From an uncultured Erysipelotrichaceae bacterium (lineage in GTDB: Bacteria; Bacillota_I; Bacilli_A; Erysipelotrichales; Erysipelotrichaceae), in NCBI GenBank assembly GCA_947569705.1, contig CANOSP010000004.1, forward strand, positions 1-64,000: 64,000 nt of DNA. The letters run 5' to 3'. Below, piece after piece: positions 1,326 through 44,862 of the stretch (its first letter is position 1; each line of letters opens with the position of its first letter). The position numbers and the translations under genes are program-made. The notes below the pieces were generated by a model. It saw only the letters and a program-made list of their open reading frames with translations. It was not told where the DNA came from and ran no database searches.

Positions 1326-2150
1326 TTATCTAATGTTATGGTTTCGTTCATATTTTTTGATTTCAGCCTCTAAATCATTTATTTTTTCTTCGAGAAGCCT
1401 AATATTAATGCTTGAATTTTCTTTAACAGTAAGAGCAAATTTTTTATATGCTTTAGCCATTGCTTCATTGCCGAACTCTTTTCCTGCATCAAAAATTTTG
1501 CTTGGTATTTTTTTTGAAAAATAGTCATGCTCATCTAACTGTTTTTTTAATATGTCTAATTCCTTTTTGTTATAGTTATACTTTTCCTCGCTATTATCTT
1601 TGATTTTTTTTAATTTTGACATTACACTATCCAGCATTATTTTTTCATAACTATCACTTGAAATAAATGAATACTTACAATCATCAAGTTTTGCTTCCCA
1701 TGGTGGAAGAAATTCATCGGCAGAAACAACATAGTGAGATTTTTCATTAGGGAAGTAATAAAGATATTCTTTACATGATGTTAGAAACTCTCCAGCATAG
1801 TCCGATTCCAAAATGTCATTTAATGCAAGGATTCTGTCATTACCTAAATGAAACTCAGTTAATCTATTTACAACAGATGGAGAAAGCCTTGTCTTAAGGC
1901 TTATATCTCTCAATTCTACGTCTAAAGATGATATATCACTTAAACCAAGTAAATAATCAAGTGAAGTATTCAATCCCTTTGCAATAGGTATGATAGTTTC
2001 AATACGGGGATTTTTTCTTTCACCCGTAATGATTGCATTTAAAGTAGATGTCTTCATTCCTATTTCATTACATAAATCAGTCTGTGTTTTGCCTTGTTTT
2101 AATAATGTATCTGCTATTCTTTCCCCTAATGTTAATTTACAATCACTCAT
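1326..2150 (-). CDS. Phage-type repressor with N-terminal HTH (CI-like)
   Basis: Probable master repressor of the element. Residues 5-65 are an XRE-family helix-turn-helix (QTDLCNEIGMKTSTLNAIITG). The remaining 200 residues contain long charged, probably coiled-coil stretches, and no LexA/CI peptidase Ser-Lys pair is evident. So it may be switched by a partner protein and not by RecA-driven self-cleavage. The ATG at 2150 is preferred over the upstream GTG at 2159 because AAAGGAG sits 8 nt before it. It is divergent from the Cro/excisionase-like pair, and TGTGGAAA half-sites lie between them. Confidence 0.75.
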   Translation of the reverse strand: MSDCKLTLGERIADTLLKQGKTQTDLCNEIGMKTSTLNAIITGERKNPRIETIIPIAKGLNTSLDYLLGLSDISSLDVELRDISLKTRLSPSVVNRLTEFHLGNDRILALNDILESDYAGEFLTSCKEYLYYFPNEKSHYVVSADEFLPPWEAKLDDCKYSFISSDSYEKIMLDSVMSKLKKIKDNSEEKYNYNKKELDILKKQLDEHDYFSKKIPSKIFDAGKEFGNEAMAKAYKKFALTVKENSSINIRLLEEKINDLEAEIKKYERNHNIR

Positions 2151-2166
2151 ACATAGCACTCCTTTA

Positions 2167-2284
2167 TTGTGGAAATCTCAAATAATAAATCCGCATTAAA
2201 TACACAAAACATGAATTTTCTAAGATTATCAAAATTTCATGCTATCATATTTAATGTGGAAAACACAACCAACATATCCACAAT
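2167..2284. promoter_or_regulatory. Divergent operator region of the repressor switch
   Basis: Three copies of a TGTGGAAA-like half-site are visible: 2167-2176 (TTGTGGAAAT), 2254-2262 (ATGTGGAAA) and, inverted, 2277-2284 (TCCACAAT). They lie between the divergently transcribed repressor and Cro-like genes, as expected for shared lysogeny operators. Which protein binds which site is inferred. Confidence 0.5.
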
Positions 2285-2343
2285 GAAATTATAGCTTATT
2301 TTTCCAACAGAAGCAACAACAAAATTAAAGGAGTGATGAAAAA

Positions 2344-2529
2344 ATGAAAAATAAGGATTTAAGAGATTACGCAAAGAGCAAGGCAGTAAAGTTATGGGAA
2401 ATCGCAGATAAGCTGGGCATATGCGAAATGACCATGACTAGAAAATTACGGTATGAGCTACCGACAGATGAAAAAGAACGTATTAAAGGTATCATCGACG
2501 AAATCGTGAAAGAAAGAGAGGGTGAGTAA
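2344..2529 (+). CDS. Small Cro-like HTH protein
   Basis: 61 residues. Residues 14-38 (LWEIADKLGICEMTMTRKL) read as a helix-turn-helix, followed by a charged helix. Position, size and divergence from the repressor fit a Cro-type anti-repressor or an early activator. AAAGGAG lies a few bases before the ATG. It is followed after 2 bases by the excisionase-like gene, so the two are probably one transcript under the TGTGGAAA operators. No family name can be given with certainty. Confidence 0.6.
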   Translation: MKNKDLRDYAKSKAVKLWEIADKLGICEMTMTRKLRYELPTDEKERIKGIIDEIVKEREGE

Positions 2530-2531
2530 TA

Positions 2532-2765
2532 ATGAGTGATTTAAAGATGCTCACGCTTGAGGAAGTGGCAGAAATTACAGGTGTGCATCGAAATACAGTT
2601 ACAATGTGGCGTGAAATAGGCATTATCCAAGCCACTAAAACAGGTAGAGGCTATATGTTCTCACAAGAGGAAATCAGGCGATTTCAGCGTGATTACAAAG
2701 GCTATGACATCAGCTGTAAAGTAAAGGCTATTGAAAGCTATAACATTGTTAATGCGAACTGTTAA
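2532..2765 (+). CDS. Excisionase-family / MerR-like DNA-binding protein
   Basis: 77 residues. LTLEEVAEITGVHRNTVTMWREIG followed by GRGYMFSQEEIRRF is the winged helix-turn-helix typical of excisionase (Xis) and plasmid/phage helix_turn_helix_17 proteins. The role would be bending att DNA to direct excision, or regulation of early genes. The start follows GGTGAG with a TAATAATG junction to the upstream Cro-like gene. Xis is favoured because int lies in the same element. Confidence 0.65.
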   Translation: MSDLKMLTLEEVAEITGVHRNTVTMWREIGIIQATKTGRGYMFSQEEIRRFQRDYKGYDISCKVKAIESYNIVNANC

Positions 2766-2786
2766 GCATATTGCGAGTGCGTTTTT
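2762..2786. repeat. 25-bp inverted repeat, right copy (flanks repressor module)
   Basis: Partner of 1247-1271, in opposite orientation with 24/25 identity. It starts inside a further stem, GTTAAGC (2761-2767) / GCTTAAC (2793-2799). A second stem follows, TACGACCG / CGGTCGTA (2811-2848). The whole 2761-2850 gap is therefore structured. Confidence 0.7.
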
Positions 2787-2872
2787 ATTATGGCTTAACA
2801 GTATTACGATACGACCGTATTACTTGATAAAAAGCTATGCGGTCGTACTTGATTATGAAAAGGAGGCAAATA

Positions 2873-3775
2873 ATGGCTGATAGTAAAAAATACTATTATA
2901 TGCGATTGAAAGAGGATTACTTTGATTCAAACGAGATTGCAGCTCTCGAATCAATGGAAAATGGTTTTTTATACAGTAATATTCTTTTAAAGCTTTATCT
3001 ACGTAGTTTAAAAGATGATGGACGCTTAATGTTTAATAACTGTATACCATATGATGCTAAAATCATCGCATCAATAACAAGACATGAAATAAGCACAGTT
3101 GAACAGGCTTTAAATGTCTTGCAAAAGCTTGGATTAATTGAAATTCTTGATAGTGGCGCAATTTATATGCTGAACATACAGCAATACATAGGTCAATCAA
3201 GCAGTGAAGCAGATAGAGTTAAAGCATATAGAAAAAGACTTGATAAGGAAAAAAACAGCAAGTCATCTAATGACAAAAATTTGCATAAAAAGAACGAAAA
3301 ATATAGTGTACAAATGTACACAAAACCTTGTACAAATGTACACCAAGATAACGTACAAATGTACGGGTGTACAAATGTACACCAGAGAATAGAGAATAGA
3401 GATAAAGAATATATAAAAACATATGCGCATCAAGATGCGCGAGTGTCTAAGAATGATTCTAAAAATAATGAACTAAAAGATAGCAATTTAAAAAATGAAT
3501 TTGAAAAGTTATGGGAATCATATCCAAACAAGAAAAGTAAAAGCAAAGCTATGAAGTCATATATCAAAGCTAGAAAAAGAATCAAGAATCCAGTAACTTA
3601 TGAACAAGTAGAAAAAGGCATAGAAGCATATACACAGTATATCCAAGAAAAAGGACTTGATATGCAATACGTTAAGCATGGTTCTACTTGGTTTAATAAC
3701 GAGTGTTGGAACGATGATTATACCATAGACCCAAACAAGCAAAATAGCCTAAACAAAAATAACGGTTGGTTTTAA
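2873..3775 (+). CDS. Phage replisome organizer (initiator) protein
   Basis: 300 residues from the ATG at 2873, chosen because AAAAGGAGG precedes it by 7 nt; a longer reading from 2837 has no ribosome site. The N-terminal 115 residues (KKYYYMRLKEDYFDSNEIAAL, then a winged-helix region) match the phage replisome-organizer N-terminal family. The middle is low complexity. The C-terminal part (FEKLWESYPNKKSKSKAMKSY) is the DnaD-like/DUF tail common in such initiators. It should bind the origin and load the helicase encoded downstream. Four iterons lie within its own coding sequence, as in the lambda O gene. Confidence 0.8.
   Translation: MADSKKYYYMRLKEDYFDSNEIAALESMENGFLYSNILLKLYLRSLKDDGRLMFNNCIPYDAKIIASITRHEISTVEQALNVLQKLGLIEILDSGAIYMLNIQQYIGQSSSEADRVKAYRKRLDKEKNSKSSNDKNLHKKNEKYSVQMYTKPCTNVHQDNVQMYGCTNVHQRIENRDKEYIKTYAHQDARVSKNDSKNNELKDSNLKNEFEKLWESYPNKKSKSKAMKSYIKARKRIKNPVTYEQVEKGIEAYTQYIQEKGLDMQYVKHGSTWFNNECWNDDYTIDPNKQNSLNKNNGWF
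3306..3382. repeat. Four iterons inside the initiator gene, candidate replication origin
   Basis: GTACAAATGTAC occurs exactly at 3308-3319, 3330-3341, 3353-3364 and 3369-3380. Each has inverted arms GTACA/TGTAC, and three have TGTACA-type extensions. The array sits in the middle of the replisome-organizer gene and encodes repeated VQMYTK / CTNVHQ. Iterons within an initiator gene are the known layout of lambdoid and many Firmicute phage origins. Confidence 0.65.
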
Positions 3776-3790
3776 ACGGAGGTATGCACA

Positions 3791-4027
3791 ATGACAGAGA
3801 ACGAAACGCAAGTATTACTAACAACTATCGAAGGATCATATAAAAACTTTCTCATGGGTAGAAACAAGCAGATAGTATTTAAAGCGTGGTATGAAGTTAT
3901 GCGTAGTCAAGATTACAGCAAAGTACACAGCAAATTAACAGACTGGATCATGAGCAACAATACACCTCCTGCAATTAGTGATCTTGTATGCGTAGATTGG
4001 AGAAAAAGATATGAACAAGCAGGCTGA
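3791..4027 (+). CDS. Helicase loader/inhibitor-like small protein (G39P type)
   Basis: 78 residues. AWYEVMRSQDYSKVHSKLTDWI...PPAISDL resembles the N-terminal helical domain of phage helicase loader/inhibitors (G39P and DnaI-like). In those proteins a Trp, a short helix pair and a PP(T/A)I motif recur. Its place between the initiator and the DnaB-type helicase supports a role in helicase loading. AACGGAGG precedes the ATG. It overlaps the helicase start by 17 bases, suggesting coupled translation. The assignment rests on a short motif and on context. Confidence 0.6.
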   Translation: MTENETQVLLTTIEGSYKNFLMGRNKQIVFKAWYEVMRSQDYSKVHSKLTDWIMSNNTPPAISDLVCVDWRKRYEQAG

Positions 4028-5186
4028 TATACAAGCAGAATGTATCGGTACATTGTCTTTGTATCCTGAATTATTCCAACATAGCGTATTAAAATCTGAA
4101 TACTTCACAAAAGGTTATGCAGAAATATACGCAGCTATGAATCAATGCTACAGAAAATCCAAAACGCTTTTAACGGCTGATTTAACGAGGTGTAAAGACT
4201 TCAACCTCGATTTGTATATGAACTGCACTGAAACAGGCTTCAGCAAAGACACAAACCGCTTCAAACGAATACAGCAAGTAGTGATTGACAGATACAAGGA
4301 GCGACGTATTAAGCAGCTATCCGATGATCTACGAGCAAATGCAATTACATTAAACGAATACGATAGTGAATATCGTAAAATCATAGACTTGCACACTGAG
4401 GAAACAAGCAGAATCACAGCGGATGATCTGATAGAAGCTTGCAAAGACGATAAGAAAAACATATTTTTTCATAGATTCAGACATCTAGGGGGATTGATGA
4501 AGCTGAAAGAGAATGATTTTGTAGTCGTTGCAGGAGTTACTGGTGGCGGTAAATCAGGACTTGCTTTAAACCTGTTAGAGGATTTATCAACTGATTATAA
4601 ATGTTTGTACTTTAATCTTGAAATGGTACAACAAGAATTACTGCAAAGGCTTATAGCGCTCAAAAGCAGCTTACTGCAAGATGAAATTGCAAAGATGGAT
4701 AAATTATCACTCGTTATCCAAAACAAAGCCACAGAGGCTATTAATGAGTTCTCACAACGTGAAATACACATCATCAGTAAAAGCCAAACACTGGATACAA
4801 TCAGAGCAAATATAGCGATGAACGACACAAAAAAGCATATGATTGTGATTATCGACCATATCGGATTGATTGGTACAAAAGCAAGAAATTCCTACGAGCG
4901 TATGACGGAAATAGCGAAAGAACTGCGTAAGTATAGCTTAGATTTCAACTGTACGATCATAGGGATATGTCAGCTTAACAGAGATGCAACTAAATCAAAT
5001 GACGGTCCCAAGCTATCAATGCTGCGTGATAGCGGAGAGATTGAACAATCAGCCAGTAAGGTAGTATTTGTTTGGAATGATGATAACGGCTATAGCTTGG
5101 TACTACTTAAAAACCGCAGCGGCAGAACAGGTGTAATCAATGTACATTACAACAAAGGCACACAAAGAATGGAGGAATACTCATGA
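4011..5186 (+). CDS. dnaB: Replicative DNA helicase (DnaB family)
   Basis: 391 residues, shorter than the 440-460 of chromosomal DnaB and typical of phage versions. The N-terminal helical domain is about residues 1-110. The RecA-like motor has Walker A GVTGGGKSG near 173-181, Walker B MIVIIDHIG near 276, and a C-terminal arginine-finger-type stretch (LLKNRSGRTG). It unwinds DNA at the fork set up by the upstream initiator. It overlaps the gene before it, and its stop overlaps the next start (ATGA), so the replication block is one operon. Confidence 0.9.
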   Translation: MNKQADIQAECIGTLSLYPELFQHSVLKSEYFTKGYAEIYAAMNQCYRKSKTLLTADLTRCKDFNLDLYMNCTETGFSKDTNRFKRIQQVVIDRYKERRIKQLSDDLRANAITLNEYDSEYRKIIDLHTEETSRITADDLIEACKDDKKNIFFHRFRHLGGLMKLKENDFVVVAGVTGGGKSGLALNLLEDLSTDYKCLYFNLEMVQQELLQRLIALKSSLLQDEIAKMDKLSLVIQNKATEAINEFSQREIHIISKSQTLDTIRANIAMNDTKKHMIVIIDHIGLIGTKARNSYERMTEIAKELRKYSLDFNCTIIGICQLNRDATKSNDGPKLSMLRDSGEIEQSASKVVFVWNDDNGYSLVLLKNRSGRTGVINVHYNKGTQRMEEYS

Positions 5187-8223: not shown

Positions 8224-8844
8224 TTAACCCTTTACTAGACTTTCCCGATAATCTTCTATTTCTTTTTGTAATTTAGTTACATTCTCTTTTAATTGGTTTC
8301 TTTCTTTTAATAAATCCTCATATTCTCTATAAAATGATGCGAAATGTTTTTGAATTGTCATGTGTTCTATGTTTTTAAAAGCATCGCTATGTATATCAAA
8401 ACGAGCATCATGGCTATATAAAATTCTATTTATGCTTACAGAGCGCAAATCGTTTAACTTGATTACAGAATCATGGTTTATAAATTTAAATTCATCACTT
8501 TTTAATAAATAGAAATCGCTTATTGATTGATTATTACTTACAGGATGATAAGCATCAGCATGGATGTCAGGCTTATATGAAAATATTGGCAACACATATA
8601 ATAATTGTTTTCTTACTCCAATGACAACCCCTCTATGTTCGTATGACATTTCAGGAACAAAGTTTTTACCAAAATCAAATTGATATATTTCACCTTTTTT
8701 TACACGTCTCCGTTGCTTGATTCCCATTTTAGATAGAGCCCATTTTATTTCAGATTTCGATATTCTCGATATTTCATCACTTCCATTAAGTTTCTGTATA
8801 ACATCGTTTGTTTTATTTATAGCATCAAGATATTTTTTATACAT
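8224..8844 (-). CDS. MazF/PemK-fold toxin, long form
   Basis: About 206 residues. Counting from the upstream ATG at 8850, the MazF-like barrel starts at residues 50-60 (RVKKGEIYQFDFG). It continues through EHRGVVIG (71-78), which offers the conserved Arg, and LLYVLPIFS (83-91), which offers the Ser/Thr-side motif. MazF-fold toxins are mostly endoribonucleases. Here a helical arm of 48 residues precedes the barrel and a coiled coil (ERNQLKENVTKLQKEIEDYRE) ends it. The ATG at 8844 is preferred over 8850 because AGGGAG lies 8 nt before it. No protein antitoxin is adjacent. A promoter, four hairpins and a terminator lie directly upstream, so an RNA antitoxin or structured leader is possible. Confidence 0.75.
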   Translation of the reverse strand: MYKKYLDAINKTNDVIQKLNGSDEISRISKSEIKWALSKMGIKQRRRVKKGEIYQFDFGKNFVPEMSYEHRGVVIGVRKQLLYVLPIFSYKPDIHADAYHPVSNNQSISDFYLLKSDEFKFINHDSVIKLNDLRSVSINRILYSHDARFDIHSDAFKNIEHMTIQKHFASFYREYEDLLKERNQLKENVTKLQKEIEDYRESLVKG

Positions 8845-8863
8845 TCCCATCTCTCCCTTAATG

Positions 8864-8892
8864 AAAAAGGATGCAGACGTCTCCGCACCCTT
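8864..8892 (-). terminator. Terminator between structured RNA and toxin gene
   Basis: On the minus strand: 11-bp stem (8882-8892 with 8867-8877, two G-U pairs) closed by a 4-nt loop, then UUUU. It lies 14-20 bases before the toxin start, so most transcripts from the upstream promoter would stop here. Confidence 0.75.
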
Positions 8893-8996
8893 CTAGGCTC
8901 TCGCCTAGGTGACCTCGTCGGTCAAAGAAACTCCTTCAATAGTGGCTTTGTCAGCCAAATATAACAATATAAATCTATACCAATTTATATATGTTT
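8864..8996 (-). ncRNA. Candidate structured RNA upstream of the MazF-like toxin
   Basis: About 130 nt on the minus strand from the predicted promoter to the terminator. Visible hairpins in order are GGCT-loop-AGCC (8944-8956), GACC-loop-GGTC (8911-8923), CTAGGC-GAGA-GCCTAG (8893-8908, a GNRA tetraloop) and the terminator stem (8867-8892). No reading frame of note is present. An RNA, a terminator and then a MazF-fold toxin is the layout of type III toxin-antitoxin loci, but the tandem repeats usual for ToxI-type antitoxins are absent. It may instead be an attenuating leader. Confidence 0.55.
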
Positions 8997-9002
8997 ATAG
9001 AT

Positions 9003-9031
9003 ATATTACTCTATTATTTCTTGAATGTCAA
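9003..9031 (-). promoter_or_regulatory. Sigma-A-type promoter for the structured RNA/toxin
   Basis: Minus strand TTGACA (9026-9031), 17-nt spacer, TAATAT (9003-9008). Predicted transcription start is near 8996. It is an almost ideal promoter, unusual for a toxin gene unless restrained downstream. Confidence 0.75.
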
Positions 9032-9179
9032 ATACTATTTAACACAAAACAGCACGTAATAAGCACATAGTGATATGTAACAGCATGAAACAAGTATAAA
9101 CCTTATTGATATATTAGGCTGTCATCAAAAAGAGGAAAGCCTTAAATAGTTGCAATATTGAGGGTTTATTGGGTAGATA

Positions 9180-9319
9180 GAAGCACCCCCATTACAAAAA
9201 GACACCTCATTAAAAGTGTCCTTTGTGATGTAATGCTTGGCTGGTCTATCAACTCCAGCATTTCTTTTCAGCTCATAGGCGCGTAGCGATAGGTTTTCTA
9301 CTTCAAGCATTCATAGTTG
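9180..9319. repeat. Diverged repeat, copy 1
   Basis: 9201-9319 resembles 12867-12987. Shared blocks include ATGCTTGGCTGGT, CCAGCATTTCTTTTCAGCTC, GTAGCGATAG and CTACTTCA. On the minus strand copy 1 keeps a 61-codon frame (9125-9310, MLEVENLSLRAYELKRNAGV...). Copy 2 has a frameshift in the same frame, so coding function is doubtful. Confidence 0.6.
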
Positions 9320-9344
9320 GCGAACGGACAAATTGACCTTTTGC
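9320..9344. repeat. 25-bp inverted repeat, right end of toxin segment
   Basis: Partner of 7727-7751 in reverse orientation, one mismatch. The pair bounds 1.6 kb holding the 89-bp repeat, the MazF-like toxin and its upstream RNA. The matching place in the second module (near 12988-13012) is recognisable but diverged. Confidence 0.75.
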
Positions 9345-9403
9345 CATGTCAATATGATATAACATAGTTACCTATTTGTAAAAGCTGTATTTGAATTAGA
9401 ATC

Positions 9404-9763
9404 TTATGGTTTTGGTTTATTCTCACCATTCTTTTTTTTGAGAGTTAAATAAGCCGTAATTGCTGCTATGGTCGTTGAACCTAAGAAAGTAACTATTTGC
9501 GTTGTCGCATTTAGACAGTCTTTAAATTCAAGCTTATACGGTTCTAATTTGAATTTTTCCCAAGCTATCAAACTGTAATAATATGTAACGTCTAAAGCTA
9601 TAAATATTAATAAAGCTATTCCAAAACCACAAAAGATAATAAAGATTATATCATCTGATTTTTTACTCTGTAATTTTCCATTTTGTTTCAACACAAGAAC
9701 TACTGCAGAAAAACACACTATTAATAATGCAATAACACTTATATAGAGGTTAAATGAGATCAT
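9404..9763 (-). CDS. Small phage membrane protein, three TM segments
   Basis: 119 residues. Hydrophobic spans lie at about 5-25 (LYISVIALLIVCFSAVVLVL), 38-60 (IIFIIFCGFGIALLIFIALD) and 88-108 (TQIVTFLGSTTIAAITAYLT), with a lysine-rich C-terminus. It starts 5 bases after the Cro-like gene ends, with AAGGA upstream, so the two form one operon. Small membrane proteins beside phage regulators can act in superinfection exclusion or as holin-like proteins, but nothing in the sequence decides this. The second module lacks it. Confidence 0.55.
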   Translation of the reverse strand: MISFNLYISVIALLIVCFSAVVLVLKQNGKLQSKKSDDIIFIIFCGFGIALLIFIALDVTYYYSLIAWEKFKLEPYKLEFKDCLNATTQIVTFLGSTTIAAITAYLTLKKKNGENKPKP

Positions 9764-9767
9764 TGTA

Positions 9768-10007
9768 TCATTCCTTTTCCTGCTTTAAATCCGACTTATC
9801 AAATTCAATCAACGGCCTACCTGTTTCATTATCATTGAATGCAAGCGTTGTATTAGTAAGATCAGCTAACGCTATCAAATCGGCAGCATTCCATGATGAA
9901 CGTGCTATTTTATTTGAAATATTAGCTTGGCTTCTTTTAGTGTGATTTGCATAACTGGTTACCGTTTCACCCTTTAATTGTAATAATGCTTTAATCTTGT
10001 TATTCAT
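9768..10007 (-). CDS. Cro/XRE-type HTH regulator
   Basis: 79 residues. KALLQLKGETVTSYANHTKRSQANISNKIARSSW is a lambda-repressor-like helix-turn-helix as found in small phage and conjugative-element regulators. The C-terminal acidic tail is short. It is divergent from the 10174 gene across a 166-bp region with a TTGACA promoter and ACGAAAACGT, a likely operator. A truncated copy of this gene lies at 13745-13903. Confidence 0.7.
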   Translation of the reverse strand: MNNKIKALLQLKGETVTSYANHTKRSQANISNKIARSSWNAADLIALADLTNTTLAFNDNETGRPLIEFDKSDLKQEKE

Positions 10008-10103
10008 AGGTATTTTCCTCCTTCTTTATCATTATATCACTAAATCGTTATTTTAACAAATGATAAAATTATAAAAAAAACACTAAAACATTATTAAAAA
10101 GTG

Positions 10104-10131
10104 TTGACATATAACGAAAACGTGATACAAT
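10104..10131 (+). promoter_or_regulatory. Promoter for 10174-11846 genes with operator-like core
   Basis: TTGACA (10104-10109), 16-nt spacer, TACAAT (10126-10131). The spacer holds ATAACGAAAACGT. The reverse complement of this 13-mer recurs at about 13911-13923 beside the truncated Cro-like gene, suggesting that the Cro-like protein binds it. Confidence 0.65.
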
Positions 10132-10173
10132 ATACCTGTAAGATAGATAAGGCAATCACAGGAGGTAAGAGCC

Positions 10174-10395
10174 ATGAACTTAACAAGCAGCTATTACGAA
10201 GCAGAAAAGAGATACTTAACACCGGCAGAGATGAACAGCAAGACAGAACAGCATTTACAGGCTGTTAAGGAATTAAAAGACATGATCTACAGCTTAGAGA
10301 ATGAATTAGATGAACTGTATGAAGCTGGCATCACTGACGATGAAAAGGAATGGGAGCTAGAGGAACTAAAAGAACGCCTATCATCAATGGCTTAA
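10174..10395 (+). CDS. Small acidic coiled-coil phage protein
   Basis: 73 residues, acidic and helical throughout (EQHLQAVKELKDMIYSLENELDELYEAG). CAGGAGG lies 10 nt before the ATG. It is the first gene of a plus-strand set running to 11846. A 52-bp fragment of it (10242-10293) recurs at 13924-13975 fused to a broken Cro-like gene. No function recognised. Confidence 0.5.
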   Translation: MNLTSSYYEAEKRYLTPAEMNSKTEQHLQAVKELKDMIYSLENELDELYEAGITDDEKEWELEELKERLSSMA

Positions 10396-23903: not shown

Positions 23904-24731
23904 ATGGATTTTATTGAAATATGTAAAGCTGTCATATTAGGGATTATTCAGGGAATTACCGAATGGCTTCCGATCAGCAGCACCGGGCATTTGATTTTAT
24001 TTGACCGTATTTGGCCGATGACCTCTTCCCCTGAATTTTTTGAGGTATTTAAGGTCGTGATTCAGTTCGGATCGATTCTTGCCGTACTTATGTTGTATTT
24101 TCATAAGCTGAATCCGTTTTCATCAAACAAGACGATCAGTGAGAAGCGTGAAACATTGGAATTATGGAAAAAAGTCATTATCGGATGTCTGCCGATTGTT
24201 ATTGTCGGTTTACCGCTGGATATGATTCTGGAAGATTATCTGTCCGGTGAATTTGTGATCGCAGCGACCTTGATTATTTACGGTATTGCCTTTATCGCAA
24301 TTGAAAGCCGTGATCATAAACCTGCTATGCGCAGTTTGGAATCCCTGACCTATCGTACCGCATTTCTCATCGGATGTTTTCAGGTTTTGGCGGCGATTCC
24401 CGGAACCTCTCGCAGCGGCGCAACGATTTTAGGAGCGGTATTGCTTGGCTGTTCCCGTTATGTAGCGAGTGAATTCTCATTCTTTTTGGCAGTGCCGGTC
24501 ATGGCAGGGGCAAGCTCGTTAAAGCTGTTAAAGTATTTTTTAAAGGTCGGCATGTTTACCGCTGAGGAATGGATATTATTGTTTATCGGTACATTTATTT
24601 CATTTATCGTATCGGTATTTGCCATCAGAATGTTATTGTCTTATATCAGAAAGCACGATTTCAAGGTATTCGGTGTATATCGAATTATTCTCGGAATCAT
24701 TGTGCTTGTATATTTCGGTTTGCTTGTATAA
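23904..24731 (+). CDS. uppP: Undecaprenyl-diphosphate phosphatase
   Basis: 275 residues, multi-spanning. It dephosphorylates undecaprenyl diphosphate to recycle the lipid carrier MraY needs; extra copies give bacitracin tolerance. Signature motifs are GIIQGITEWLPISSTGHLIL (residues 14-33) and PGTSRSGATI (near 170). AAAGGAG precedes the ATG. It is 58 bases after mraY and is followed by a terminator, so it probably ends the cell-wall operon. Confidence 0.95.
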   Translation: MDFIEICKAVILGIIQGITEWLPISSTGHLILFDRIWPMTSSPEFFEVFKVVIQFGSILAVLMLYFHKLNPFSSNKTISEKRETLELWKKVIIGCLPIVIVGLPLDMILEDYLSGEFVIAATLIIYGIAFIAIESRDHKPAMRSLESLTYRTAFLIGCFQVLAAIPGTSRSGATILGAVLLGCSRYVASEFSFFLAVPVMAGASSLKLLKYFLKVGMFTAEEWILLFIGTFISFIVSVFAIRMLLSYIRKHDFKVFGVYRIILGIIVLVYFGLLV

Positions 24732-24800: not shown

Positions 24801-24837
24801 TTGACACACAATATTATACAATATATAATATTGTGTG
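24801..24837 (+). promoter_or_regulatory. PadR promoter embedded in a perfect palindrome
   Basis: TTGACA (24801-24806), 17-nt spacer, TATAAT (24824-24829). A perfect 14-bp inverted repeat (CACACAATATTATA 24805-24818 and its complement 24824-24837, 5-nt spacer) overlies both promoter boxes. Binding of a dimer here would block RNA polymerase, the usual PadR autoregulation. Confidence 0.75.
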
Positions 24838-24851
24838 AGAGGAAGGATATC

Positions 24852-25178
24852 ATGGTATTTCAATTAGGCGCATCTTTACTGGATGCATTGGTATTGGCAG
24901 TTTTGCATAAGGAAGCTGCTTACGGCTATAAATTGACCCAAGAAGTAAAATCAATGATGCAAGTTTCTGAATCTACATTATATCCAGTCTTAAGAAGACT
25001 AACACGCGAGGGTTGTTTAGAGACATATGATGAAGAGCATATGGGTAGAAATCGACGCTATTATCGTCTGACTGAAAAAGGCAAAGATCAGTATGCCTTT
25101 TATGTCAAAGAATGGCAAGTCTTTCGAGATCAAATTGACGGTATGCTGATAAAGGGAGGGAATGAACATGAATCGTGA
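24852..25178 (+). CDS. PadR-family transcriptional regulator
   Basis: 108 residues from the ATG at 24852 (GAGGAAGGA upstream); the longer frame starts inside the operator. Winged helix-turn-helix: LDALVLAVLHKEAAYGYKLTQEV, SESTLYPVLRRLTREGCLE, then GRNRRYYRLTEKG. It probably represses its own operon, which continues through DUF1700, DUF4097 and further genes. PadR with DUF1700 and DUF4097 partners is a common Firmicute membrane-stress arrangement. Confidence 0.9.
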   Translation: MVFQLGASLLDALVLAVLHKEAAYGYKLTQEVKSMMQVSESTLYPVLRRLTREGCLETYDEEHMGRNRRYYRLTEKGKDQYAFYVKEWQVFRDQIDGMLIKGGNEHES

Positions 25179-25755
25179 GGAATATATTGTAGAATTGAAA
25201 CAGCGATTGGCAGGTATGAGTGAAGCAGAAATTGACGATGCGATCGCATATTGCGAAGAATATTTCAATGAAGCAGCGGATGATGCGGCTGCGATTGCGG
25301 AGTTGGGTTCTCCGTATCGGTTTGCGGCTCAATTAAAAGCGGAATCGGTTATGAAAGAAGTACAAAGCGAGAAAACACAGAAGCATCCCAATGTTATGAA
25401 ATCACTGTTGTGGATGTTTATGGGAATCTGCGCATTGCCGATTGCTTTACCGTTGGCACTGACAGCGGCAATTCTGCTCGGTGTAGTGATATTGCTTCTT
25501 TTTGTCTTCGCCATGCTTATCGTCGTTTTATTAGGCGTATGTATTTATGCGGCGGCTGCTTCGTTTGTCACCGGGATTATGAATATTACAGTACCGGCAG
25601 ATATGATCCTGCATCTTGGCTTTTCTATTCTTTGTATCGGTATTGCCGGATTTAGTTTTTTAGCGGCATATGCGTTTATTAAGAGGTTCTTGCCGTTTTT
25701 CATTAAGCGATTATCGGACTTTTACTATCGTTACGGAAGGAGAACAGAACGATGA
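25168..25755 (+). CDS. DUF1700-family membrane protein
   Basis: 195 residues. The N-terminal MNREEYIVELKQRLAGMSEAEI, CEEYFNEA and ELGSPYRFAAQL are the HAAS-type helical signature of DUF1700. It is followed by about four membrane helices (85-175). The ATG at 25168 suits the GGGAGGG site; 25162 is too close to it. It overlaps padR by 11 bases and DUF4097 by 4. The N-terminal part is thought to regulate its partner; function is not established. Confidence 0.85.
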   Translation: MNREEYIVELKQRLAGMSEAEIDDAIAYCEEYFNEAADDAAAIAELGSPYRFAAQLKAESVMKEVQSEKTQKHPNVMKSLLWMFMGICALPIALPLALTAAILLGVVILLLFVFAMLIVVLLGVCIYAAAASFVTGIMNITVPADMILHLGFSILCIGIAGFSFLAAYAFIKRFLPFFIKRLSDFYYRYGRRTER

Positions 25756-26573
25756 AATCATACAGAATTATTGTCCTCATTGCTACAGCGTGTATCGGAA
25801 TCGGAATTGTTTTATGCGTATTCGGTTATGCTTTGGGCGGAAGGATGCATGAGTCATTCGGCATTCATTACGGAAAAGACGGTGCTTTCGGGGTAGGTTA
25901 TTATGATTCAGAGGACCAAGAACCGCACGTATCTGAATTATCAGCGTATAAGCATTTGGAAATGGATATACAGCTCGGTGATATTACGATCAAACGCGGA
26001 GATCGTTTCATGCTGTATACGGAGCAGTTAGATGCGGATGACTATGAACTGATTCAAGACGGAGATACTTTAACGATTAATTCAAAGAGCAAGCATCATA
26101 TATTTTCATTTTATTTTCGCTTACCCGATTATCATTATATTTTGACTGTTCCTAAAGATGTTAAACTGGAATCTTTAACACTGAACTCTCATATGGGCGA
26201 TGTTACTGTAGATCAAATCGCTTTAAATCACTGTGATATTCATCAATCTTTAGGGGATGTGGTGATCAGTGATGTCAATTATGCCGAAATGAATATTGAT
26301 CAAAAAATGGGTGATGTGGAATATGAAGGATTGGGACAGGGGGATATGCGAATCGATAATTCCATGGGCGATATTATTGTAAGTCTGAAAGATAAGGAAA
26401 AGTTTTATGCATATGAGCTTCATACTTCTATGGGTTCAATCGAGACAGAGCGAGAAACAGCCGACGGCGCATCGCAGAGCGTGGAATCGCATCCCAAAGA
26501 TGCTCGTTATCAGCTAAAAGCCGATTGCAGTATGGGTGATATAGAATTGGAGTTTGAAGATGATTCGGATTGA
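25752..26573 (+). CDS. DUF4097-family surface/membrane beta-repeat protein
   Basis: 273 residues. N-terminal membrane segment (IIVLIATACIGIGIVLCVFGYAL) followed by a right-handed beta-repeat region in which MGD(V/I) recurs about every 20 residues (HMGDVTV, SLGDVVI, KMGDVEYEG, SMGDIIV, SMGDIELEF). This is the DUF4097 adhesin-like fold. It is exposed outside the membrane by topology. It is coupled to its neighbours by short overlaps; role unknown. Confidence 0.85.
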   Translation: MKSYRIIVLIATACIGIGIVLCVFGYALGGRMHESFGIHYGKDGAFGVGYYDSEDQEPHVSELSAYKHLEMDIQLGDITIKRGDRFMLYTEQLDADDYELIQDGDTLTINSKSKHHIFSFYFRLPDYHYILTVPKDVKLESLTLNSHMGDVTVDQIALNHCDIHQSLGDVVISDVNYAEMNIDQKMGDVEYEGLGQGDMRIDNSMGDIIVSLKDKEKFYAYELHTSMGSIETERETADGASQSVESHPKDARYQLKADCSMGDIELEFEDDSD

Positions 26574-27774
26574 TCAGCTGATTCGAGAGGGGATTGCGGA
26601 ATGGAAGAAAACAAATGCATATGAAGGCTTACATCACTGGGTACAGGCGGATGATATACGTCAGGATTATGAGGCTCAGCTTGATGCACTGTTTCTGAAG
26701 GTTGCGTCATTTATGAAGCAATTTCCCAAGCAGGAAGCTAAACGACGGATTTGGAAACAAAAGGCTGTTTCTGAAATCAATCGAATTATGCAAAACGGTG
26801 ACAGCTACTTCTTCAGCGGTTTAACCGAAGCAGAAAGAAAGCTTTTTCAAGAGATCACGATTGCTTTCCTGCGTGATGTCAGAAGCTTTGATCGTGAACT
26901 GTCTTTGCAGGATACGATGCAGGCATTGCGCAATATATGGATCTTGGCAATTTTGCAGTGTCTTTTCCAAAAAAATATCGGTTATCATCAAGCGATGTTT
27001 GCCTACAGTATGCTGTATCCGTATTCCGATAATTATTTAGATGACAGTCTTGTTTCATCGAGTGAAAAACAGCGGTTTAACGAATGGTTCACTGAGCGAT
27101 TAAAGGGATCTGCGTCAGCGCCGCATAATGATCATGAAGCGAAAATATCTAAATTGATTGCGATGATTGAGCAACAGTTTCCGCGTACACAATATCCCGA
27201 TGTATATGAAGCATTACTGTTAATTCAGGCGGCACAGATTTGCTCGCTGCACCAACAGGACGGTAAGCAGTCCTTGAGTGATGAAGAACTGCTTGCGATT
27301 TCCTATGAAAAGGGCGGTACCTCGGTAATCGCAGACGGCATATTGATCGACGGCACATTAACTCACGATCAACAGCGCTTCTGTATGCAGTTCGGCTTTC
27401 TGTTACAGCTCGGCGATGATATTCAGGATGCCCGAGGCGATCACATGAACAATCATCAGACATTGTTATCCAATCATCTCGATCAATGCGGTGACGCATT
27501 GATTAAGCAGCTGCTTCAATACATTGAAACTACCGTATTATCTACACCGGTATGTACAAGAAAAGAACTGTTGAACTTTGTGCAAAAGGATTGCTTCTAT
27601 TTGATTTTTTATGCACTGTTTCAAAGAAATGCAATCCCTGTATCAGAATCGCTGGCGCATAACATTGCGCAATGTCTGCCGTTATCATCAGCTTTTTTGA
27701 ATCAAATAATGAATCAGTACGGAAATCTGTACAGTGAAGCAGCGTTATGGGAATATATTGACGCATTGCTGTAA
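26560..27774 (+). CDS. Class 1 isoprenoid-synthase-fold enzyme, divergent
   Basis: 404 residues from the ATG at 26560 (GGAG 7 nt upstream; the in-frame TTG at 26554 is weaker). Two acidic motifs fit a trans-isoprenyl synthase fold: DNYLDD near 165 and LQLGDDIQDARGD near 290. The N-terminal 130 residues are an extra helical domain, and the usual basic pyrophosphate motifs are not obvious. It is likely to act on a prenyl diphosphate, but synthase versus other chemistry is open. Its place in the PadR operon is unusual for a housekeeping prenyltransferase. Confidence 0.65.
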   Translation: MIRIDQLIREGIAEWKKTNAYEGLHHWVQADDIRQDYEAQLDALFLKVASFMKQFPKQEAKRRIWKQKAVSEINRIMQNGDSYFFSGLTEAERKLFQEITIAFLRDVRSFDRELSLQDTMQALRNIWILAILQCLFQKNIGYHQAMFAYSMLYPYSDNYLDDSLVSSSEKQRFNEWFTERLKGSASAPHNDHEAKISKLIAMIEQQFPRTQYPDVYEALLLIQAAQICSLHQQDGKQSLSDEELLAISYEKGGTSVIADGILIDGTLTHDQQRFCMQFGFLLQLGDDIQDARGDHMNNHQTLLSNHLDQCGDALIKQLLQYIETTVLSTPVCTRKELLNFVQKDCFYLIFYALFQRNAIPVSESLAHNIAQCLPLSSAFLNQIMNQYGNLYSEAALWEYIDALL

Positions 27775-27814
27775 ATGTTATTCTGTAAATGGGGAAAGTG
27801 AAAGGAAGCTGTGT

Positions 27815-28552
27815 ATGAAAACAAAAAAAGGTTTCGGCTTTTTTATGATTTGGCTTATCATTTATTTAATAATGATTAATGCATCAACGGTATTATCGCA
27901 GGCAGTCGGTATAAATAATCTTTTTACTGCCGTTTTCGAATGCTTATTTGTTATAGTAATGTTGTTGTATTTGAAAAAACATCAATTGCTTACGTATTAC
28001 GGATTGAAGCCGTTAAATAAAATGAATTATCAAAAACTGTTGTATTTGATACCATTGATCATATACGGTTCCTCAAACTTATGGTACGGAATTCATTTAG
28101 ATGGTACTTTGGACCAGCTGTTATTGATTACCGTCAGTATGCTTTGTGTCGGTTTTGCCGAAGAGATGATCTTTCGCTCCTTCTTAATTAAGTCATTGCG
28201 TCATAAGCGTGATATAACCGCGGTGAGCGTATCGGCTGTCTTATTCGGCGGGCTGCATCTGTTAAATGTATTAGGCGGAGCCGATCTGTTTTTAACGCTG
28301 TTACAGGTTTTGAATACAACAGCGTTCGGCTTTATGTGCGCAGCTTTTTATTGTAAGACAAACCATATACTGCCATGTATTCTTTGTCATGGATTATACA
28401 ATACATTTGATATTTTTATGCCGACAGAAAGCTTGGATGTCATGTTTCTCGGTGAAGCGATTGTAATCATCATTGCTTTTGCTTACGGAATCTATTTAAT
28501 AAAAACGGATAATTCAATGATAAAAACACCTTGTATTCCGATCATTGATTAA
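27815..28552 (+). CDS. CPBP-family intramembrane glutamic protease-like protein
   Basis: 245 residues, six to eight membrane helices. Motif 1 FAEEMIFRSFLI carries the paired Glu. Motif 2 FGGLHLL and motif 3 CHGLYNTFD carry the His residues of the Abi/CAAX-protease fold. Start at 27815 with AAAGGA upstream. It closes the PadR operon. Members process prenylated or membrane-bound peptides, or give bacteriocin immunity. The adjacent prenyl-type enzyme makes a link to lipidated substrates conceivable but unproven. Confidence 0.8.
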   Translation: MKTKKGFGFFMIWLIIYLIMINASTVLSQAVGINNLFTAVFECLFVIVMLLYLKKHQLLTYYGLKPLNKMNYQKLLYLIPLIIYGSSNLWYGIHLDGTLDQLLLITVSMLCVGFAEEMIFRSFLIKSLRHKRDITAVSVSAVLFGGLHLLNVLGGADLFLTLLQVLNTTAFGFMCAAFYCKTNHILPCILCHGLYNTFDIFMPTESLDVMFLGEAIVIIIAFAYGIYLIKTDNSMIKTPCIPIID

Positions 28553-28802: not shown

Positions 28803-29006
28803 ATGAGTACAGGTAAAGTAAAATGGTTTAATGCCGACAAAGGTTACGGATTTATTACCGGAGAAGACGGAAAAGATATTTTCGTTCACTACAGTGCAAT
28901 TCAATGCGATGGTTTCCGTACATTAGAAGAAGGTCAGAGCGTTGATTATGAAGTAGTAGAAGGCGAGCGCGGCGAACAAGCAGCGAACGTTTCTGTAAAC
29001 GCATAA
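28803..29006 (+). CDS. csp: Cold-shock protein, RNA chaperone
   Basis: 67 residues, full length. A single cold-shock OB-fold domain with RNP1 KGYGFITG and RNP2 IFVHYSAI. It melts RNA secondary structure at low temperature and during growth. AGGAGG precedes the ATG at good spacing. It is monocistronic, with its own promoter, a long leader and a terminator. Confidence 0.96.
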
Positions 29007-44829: not shown

Positions 44830-44862
44830 AATAAAAGTGACTCGCTATAAGTCACTTTTATT
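44830..44862. terminator. Terminator of the feo operon
   Basis: Perfect 13-bp stem (AATAAAAGTGACT and its complement) with a 6-nt loop and T-run; bidirectional. Confidence 0.85.

Follow-up and report, generated by a model that had tools for sequence, protein, structure and literature searches.

What might a protein that resembles a prenyl diphosphate synthase be doing as the last member of a small regulatory operon? The question is raised by a stretch of 64,000 nt from the genome of an uncultured Erysipelotrichaceae bacterium (the window; positions given below are those of its forward strand, and gene calls were read from its letters), in which padR, a HAAS (DUF1700) gene, a DUF4097 gene and a gene for a 404-amino-acid protein overlap head to tail and form a real operon. 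The overlaps amount to 11 nt between padR and the HAAS gene (read from the ATG at 25168), 4 nt between the HAAS and DUF4097 genes and 14 nt between the DUF4097 gene and the fourth gene, and a CPBP-type gene starts 40 nt past the end of the latter, in agreement with a first-pass annotation of this DNA that described the genes downstream of the promoter as overlapping or nearly touching. We think it probable, with some reserve, that the locus represents an autoregulated, envelope-stress-type PadR-HAAS-Toastrack cassette in which, in one lineage, a class I isoprenoid-type enzyme has become a constant fourth member and candidate effector.

The fixed position of the fourth gene (26560..27774, forward strand) is evident from its distribution. 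A profile search of 272 genomes of the family found the gene in 10 genomes from 4 genera, and it is present in 7/7 genomes of the genus to which the window belongs. The enzyme gene is confined to this operon, and the order padR-HAAS-DUF4097-enzyme recurs in all nine loci that have their full context; the tenth carrier (L023) is a 3070-base contig that shows only DUF4097 followed by the enzyme gene. At least four flank contexts surround the operon, with uppP lying upstream in the window and in L011, L012 and L013, one set of other flanks in L014/L015, another in L016 and yet another in L017/L026. When examined for a conserved neighbourhood, it is therefore the four genes that hold together, which bears out the earlier suggestion that PadR, HAAS and DUF4097 form a unit with a diverged prenyl-synthase-like protein, a unit that fits an envelope-stress system. 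Estimates of the ratio of nonsynonymous to synonymous substitution (NG86 dN/dS) of 0.130, 0.108 and 0.164 in three pairs place the enzyme gene under purifying selection. In one of the loci, L015 (G049), part of the cassette is duplicated in tandem: further HAAS and DUF4097 stretches at 8622-10381 separate padR from its usual HAAS gene.

Outside the family, no true carrier came to light when 395 genomes sampled from the class and 392 from the phylum were searched. True carriers made up 4/5 of the matches in the class sample, 5/6 in the phylum sample, 10/10 in the family search and 8/9 in another genome search; a match in L022 to a P-type ATPase-like open reading frame and one in L010 to a TetR-like open reading frame were dropped after reading by eye. 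No relatives of the enzyme were found in plasmids or viral contigs, and a contig scan with the single protein returned only L019, apparently the same contig as G079:C108 / L011, which was counted once.

The first three genes of the operon have already been described as a group elsewhere, and what is new is the family of the enzyme and the constant position that it occupies in the cassette. In the window, a standalone PadR winged helix-turn-helix gene (padR, 24852..25178, forward strand; PF03551, 2.5e-19) encoding a PadR-family repressor adjoins a gene (25168..25755, forward strand) for a protein with a HAAS domain (PF22564, 8.2e-10), containing a GSP (GxP) motif, and four hydrophobic segments in its hydropathy profile, which is the probable membrane sensor partner of PadR. 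The same operon includes the Toastrack (DUF4097) gene (25752..26573, forward strand; PF13349, 5.3e-28), whose product has one N-terminal hydrophobic segment and a weak similarity to LiaG (7.9e-11, below the curated cut-off). A second HAAS domain in the same genome (G000:C1:74320-74469) lies in a 363-residue frame with one internal TGA, perhaps a decayed HAAS gene.

Published systems offer several points of comparison. Ravi et al. (PMC11237479) describe HAAS-PadR systems as alternatives to two-component systems, with Toastrack as a platform beneath the membrane; the epithet "adhesin-like", given to the DUF4097 protein in the first pass, thus gives way to a domain proposed to act in stress signalling. 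The HAAS-PadR-like winged helix-turn-helix/Toastrack systems of that report share with the present locus a standalone PadR, a HAAS-transmembrane protein and Toastrack, whereas their partners, in the sections consulted, are FtsX, RodA/FtsW, VanZ, pentapeptide and other proteins, none prenyl-synthase-like. The lltR-lmo0600-lmo0601 genes of Listeria monocytogenes correspond in order and kind (PadR repressor, DUF1700 membrane protein, DUF4097 protein), and the excerpts of the study at hand relate that in the lltR* mutant these genes are up more than 100-fold and lmo0602 12.7-fold, that the LiaI/LiaH phage-shock genes are also up, and that the cold-growth defect of the mutant depends on lmo0600 (PMC6624303). 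There, however, lmo0602 encodes an N-acetyltransferase, and those excerpts include no isoprenoid-type enzyme. Bacillus cereus BC4206-BC4207 likewise pairs a PadR gene with a membrane protein of four transmembrane segments and is induced by a membrane-active bacteriocin, but consists, in the portion of the paper seen, of two genes only (PMC2774856). No paper was found that brings together PadR, a polyprenyl synthetase and envelope stress, in a search that was thin on subscription journals, and the titles and opening lines of abstracts of the 14 papers listed for DUF4097 or the HAAS domain place no isoprenoid enzyme alongside.

Within the family sample, HAAS was detected in 62/95 genomes, and the order padR-HAAS-DUF4097 was recognized by home-made models in 13 of 20 fetched HAAS loci that have no enzyme gene, the HAAS model itself finding no match in 3 of the 20. 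L118 has a PadR-HAAS-DUF4097 operon in which the end of DUF4097 is overlapped by a GNAT acetyltransferase gene (3876-4379, reverse strand), a fourth gene of the same type as Listeria lmo0602. Because of these frequencies and the GNAT gene, the three-gene cassette can be regarded as common and its fourth slot as variable. In L119, three DUF4097-like genes stand in a row behind padR-HAAS (1923-5042, reverse strand). Such HAAS-PadR-Toastrack cassettes are widespread, and a single soluble, enzyme-like fourth protein in a fixed position represents a concrete and assayable candidate output.

The DNA upstream of padR suggests how the operon might be controlled. Direct reading gives a sigma-A-type promoter on the forward strand (24801..24829), with TTGACA at 24801-24806, a 17 bp spacer and TATAAT at 24824-24829, in a register that is identical upstream of padR in 8 loci. 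A perfect palindrome (24805..24837, assigned to neither strand), with 14-nt arms at 24805-24818 and 24824-24837 and a 5-nt loop, was found again as first annotated; no other perfect inverted repeat of the window with a loop of up to 8 nt is as long, and a 14-nt arm arose in 0/2000 dinucleotide shuffles of the intergenic region of 120 nt (maximum 12). It covers the -10 box and the spacer, so that the earlier placement of both promoter boxes wholly within it holds for TATAAT and fails for TTGACA, which shares just 2 nt with the arm. The only other perfect inverted repeat of the window with arms of at least 12 nt is at 44830-44862 (13-nt arms, 7-nt loop) and is perhaps a terminator.

The palindrome is the probable PadR operator. 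Its core, ATATTATA-N5-TATAATAT (24811-24831), keeps the same distance from the -35 box in the window as in seven related loci, and L026 likewise has it; among the nine enzyme-bearing operons it is exact in eight and differs by one mismatch in L017. In HAAS operons of the family that have no enzyme gene, the core occurs with at most one mismatch upstream of 11 of 17 padR genes (drawn from the 20 fetched loci), with two or three mismatches upstream of 3 others and not at all upstream of the remaining 3. In the genome of the window the exact core is found solely at padR, and there is one further site with one mismatch, a number equalled by a reversed control pattern. The conservation of the core in register and its uniqueness in the genome fit a PadR that would act as a local self-repressor, and whose class of targets would be the HAAS-Toastrack operon and not the enzyme in particular.

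The nature of the 404-amino-acid protein had to be sought in profiles and motifs, for nothing in Pfam or NCBIfam exceeded any cut-off and a single-sequence search of the PDB gave no match. Its likeness to the trans-isoprenyl diphosphate synthases (PF00348; IspA/FPPS/GGPPS) consists of two Asp-rich motifs and a Lys in similar spacing, seen in the window protein as D157-N-x-L-D-D162, K251-G-G, D286-D-x-Q-D290 and D294. The first motif reads DNxLDD in 10/10 members and the second DDxQD, and the residues R124, D157, N158, L160, D161, D162, K251, G252, G253, D286, D287, Q289, D290 and D294 are invariant in the ten. From the first Asp to the invariant Lys there are 89-94 residues, versus 85-97 (median 94) in 25 canonical sequences (4 of a set of 29 were left out, their motif patterns being unmatched), and the second DDxxD is preceded by a Lys near canonical spacing, as is expected of class I isoprenoid synthases, if slightly closer. 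Alignment by hhalign to the 29 canonical trans-prenyl diphosphate synthases scored 33.8, versus 15.2 +/- 2.9 (maximum 29.1) for column shuffles, of which 0/200 reached that score, and 22.7 for the reversed alignment. Squalene/phytoene synthases (PF00494), tried as another family, scored 14.5 with 18 sequences, which is the level of the shuffles, and none was found in the genome of the window. In a profile search of the PDB, chains of IspA, FPPS or GGPPS occupied six of the eight listed rows (E 0.57-1.4), all six aligning at the second Asp motif and four also at the Lys region.

Several observations weigh against this kinship or against an enzymatic role. The best match to polyprenyl_synt had E = 0.18, was seen in 1/10 members and fell short of the Pfam cut-off; each PDB profile match was non-significant individually; the distance from the Lys to the second motif is 35 residues versus 38-41 in canonical enzymes, i.e. 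3-6 residues shorter; and the first motif has Asn in place of Asp at its second position. Two helical structure models were too poor to judge a prenyl pocket by, with a predicted local distance difference test (pLDDT) score of 39.7 from the single sequence and 45.8 from a two-sequence input covering core residues 88-390, and Foldseek found no match in the PDB at E <= 0.001; two human squalene synthases further down its list, at ranks 33 and 38, carry no weight here. Moreover, a canonical prenyl synthase is present elsewhere in the same genome. We regard the kinship with prenyl synthases as well supported by these comparisons, and as short of certain because the hhalign probability for the canonical enzymes is only 22.8%.

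What the protein lacks bears on its chemistry. In trans-prenyl synthases, the GKR and RRG motifs hold the diphosphate of isopentenyl diphosphate. RRG follows the first DDxxD in 23/25 canonical synthases, whereas none of the 10 members has an RR in the 22 residues counted from the first Asp; where GKR-R lies, a single Arg remains (that of QALRN, 33 residues from the first Asp, a distance of 35-37 residues being usual for the final Arg in GKR-R). An N-terminal extension of variable length and the absence of a Pfam match above cut-off also set the protein apart from PF00348. Because RRG is missing and one Arg stands in the place of GKR-R, the protein is unlikely to extend chains with isopentenyl diphosphate and is probably not a chain-elongating synthase; a lyase or cyclase reaction, or transfer to another acceptor, would be more likely.

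On the reading that we favour, PadR bound to its operator would block RNA polymerase at its own promoter until the HAAS protein, together with the Toastrack protein, perceives that the membrane is disturbed and releases it. All four proteins would then be produced together, and the enzyme might bind an allylic or polyprenyl diphosphate via Mg2+ at the two Asp-rich motifs and convert it, whereby an isoprenoid pool of the membrane would be altered under stress. The more specific proposal, of an undescribed class I isoprenoid enzyme family which has lost its isopentenyl diphosphate site and which a HAAS-PadR membrane-stress circuit turns on so that a prenyl or polyprenyl diphosphate is converted, with isoprenoid chemistry as the very output of the response to envelope stress, we put forward only tentatively and would sooner doubt than assert. 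If a prenyl diphosphate is converted, envelope-stress sensing would be linked to the pool of isoprenoids from which the cell-wall carrier lipid is also drawn, and a family beyond the coverage of Pfam and NCBIfam would be added.

The constant presence of the fourth gene within a regulatory operon could also mean that its product is a catalytically weak or dead binder of prenyl diphosphates, which senses cytoplasmic polyprenyl diphosphate and signals to HAAS/PadR and is not an effector enzyme. The loss of RRG in all ten members, the DN in place of DD and the separate canonical synthase would suit such a sensor, but the invariance of both Asp-rich motifs, the Lys and D294 seems to go beyond the needs of a mere binder, and no sensory domain or fusion was seen; we hold this alternative to be unlikely. 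Less likely still is that the protein does not have the isoprenoid fold and that its Asp motifs are coincidental: the lack of any significant single match in Pfam, NCBIfam or PDB and of a usable structure would be accounted for, but not the score that no shuffle reached, the near-canonical register of the motifs or the preponderance of IspA/FPPS/GGPPS chains among the PDB profile rows. An ordinary chain-elongating trans-prenyl diphosphate synthase altered by drift would explain the spacing and profile register and is nevertheless improbable to a slightly greater degree, given an RRG that nearly all canonical enzymes keep and all ten members lack, and the absence of a polyprenyl_synt match above cut-off. 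Least probable is the version of the first-pass annotation, a lipid-linked surface system of the enzyme, a CPBP protease and an adhesin-like protein, which can point to the protease family match of the CPBP gene and its place directly downstream in the window and L013, but which the neighbourhood comparison described below largely refutes.

The CPBP intramembrane-protease-like (Rce1-like) gene (27815..28552, forward strand; PF02517, 5.4e-20) is intact downstream of the enzyme gene in only those two of the seven genomes of the genus. In L011 and L012 remnants are left, disrupted by an internal deletion or a frame break; orthologue searches in the genus found no match in G153 and G705 (the latter 66% complete, and thus weak evidence of absence) and, in G049, just a distantly related CPBP protein encoded on a different contig. 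The gene does not lie behind the enzyme gene in L014-L017 and L026, the other three genera included. Because it is intact in 2/7 genomes, broken in two, without an orthologue found in three and missing behind the enzyme elsewhere, we place it outside the unit, as a recent neighbour in this lineage that by these comparisons is decaying and plays no part in the mechanism; its proposed role as a functional partner is accordingly not supported. The decays in the sister genomes of L011 (7440-8160) and L012 (7880-8520) are separate, with an additional in-frame stop in L012, and the four upstream genes are intact in both. Further outward in the window, uppP (23904-24731, forward strand) lies upstream of padR, and a cold-shock gene (28803-29006, forward strand) follows the CPBP-like gene.

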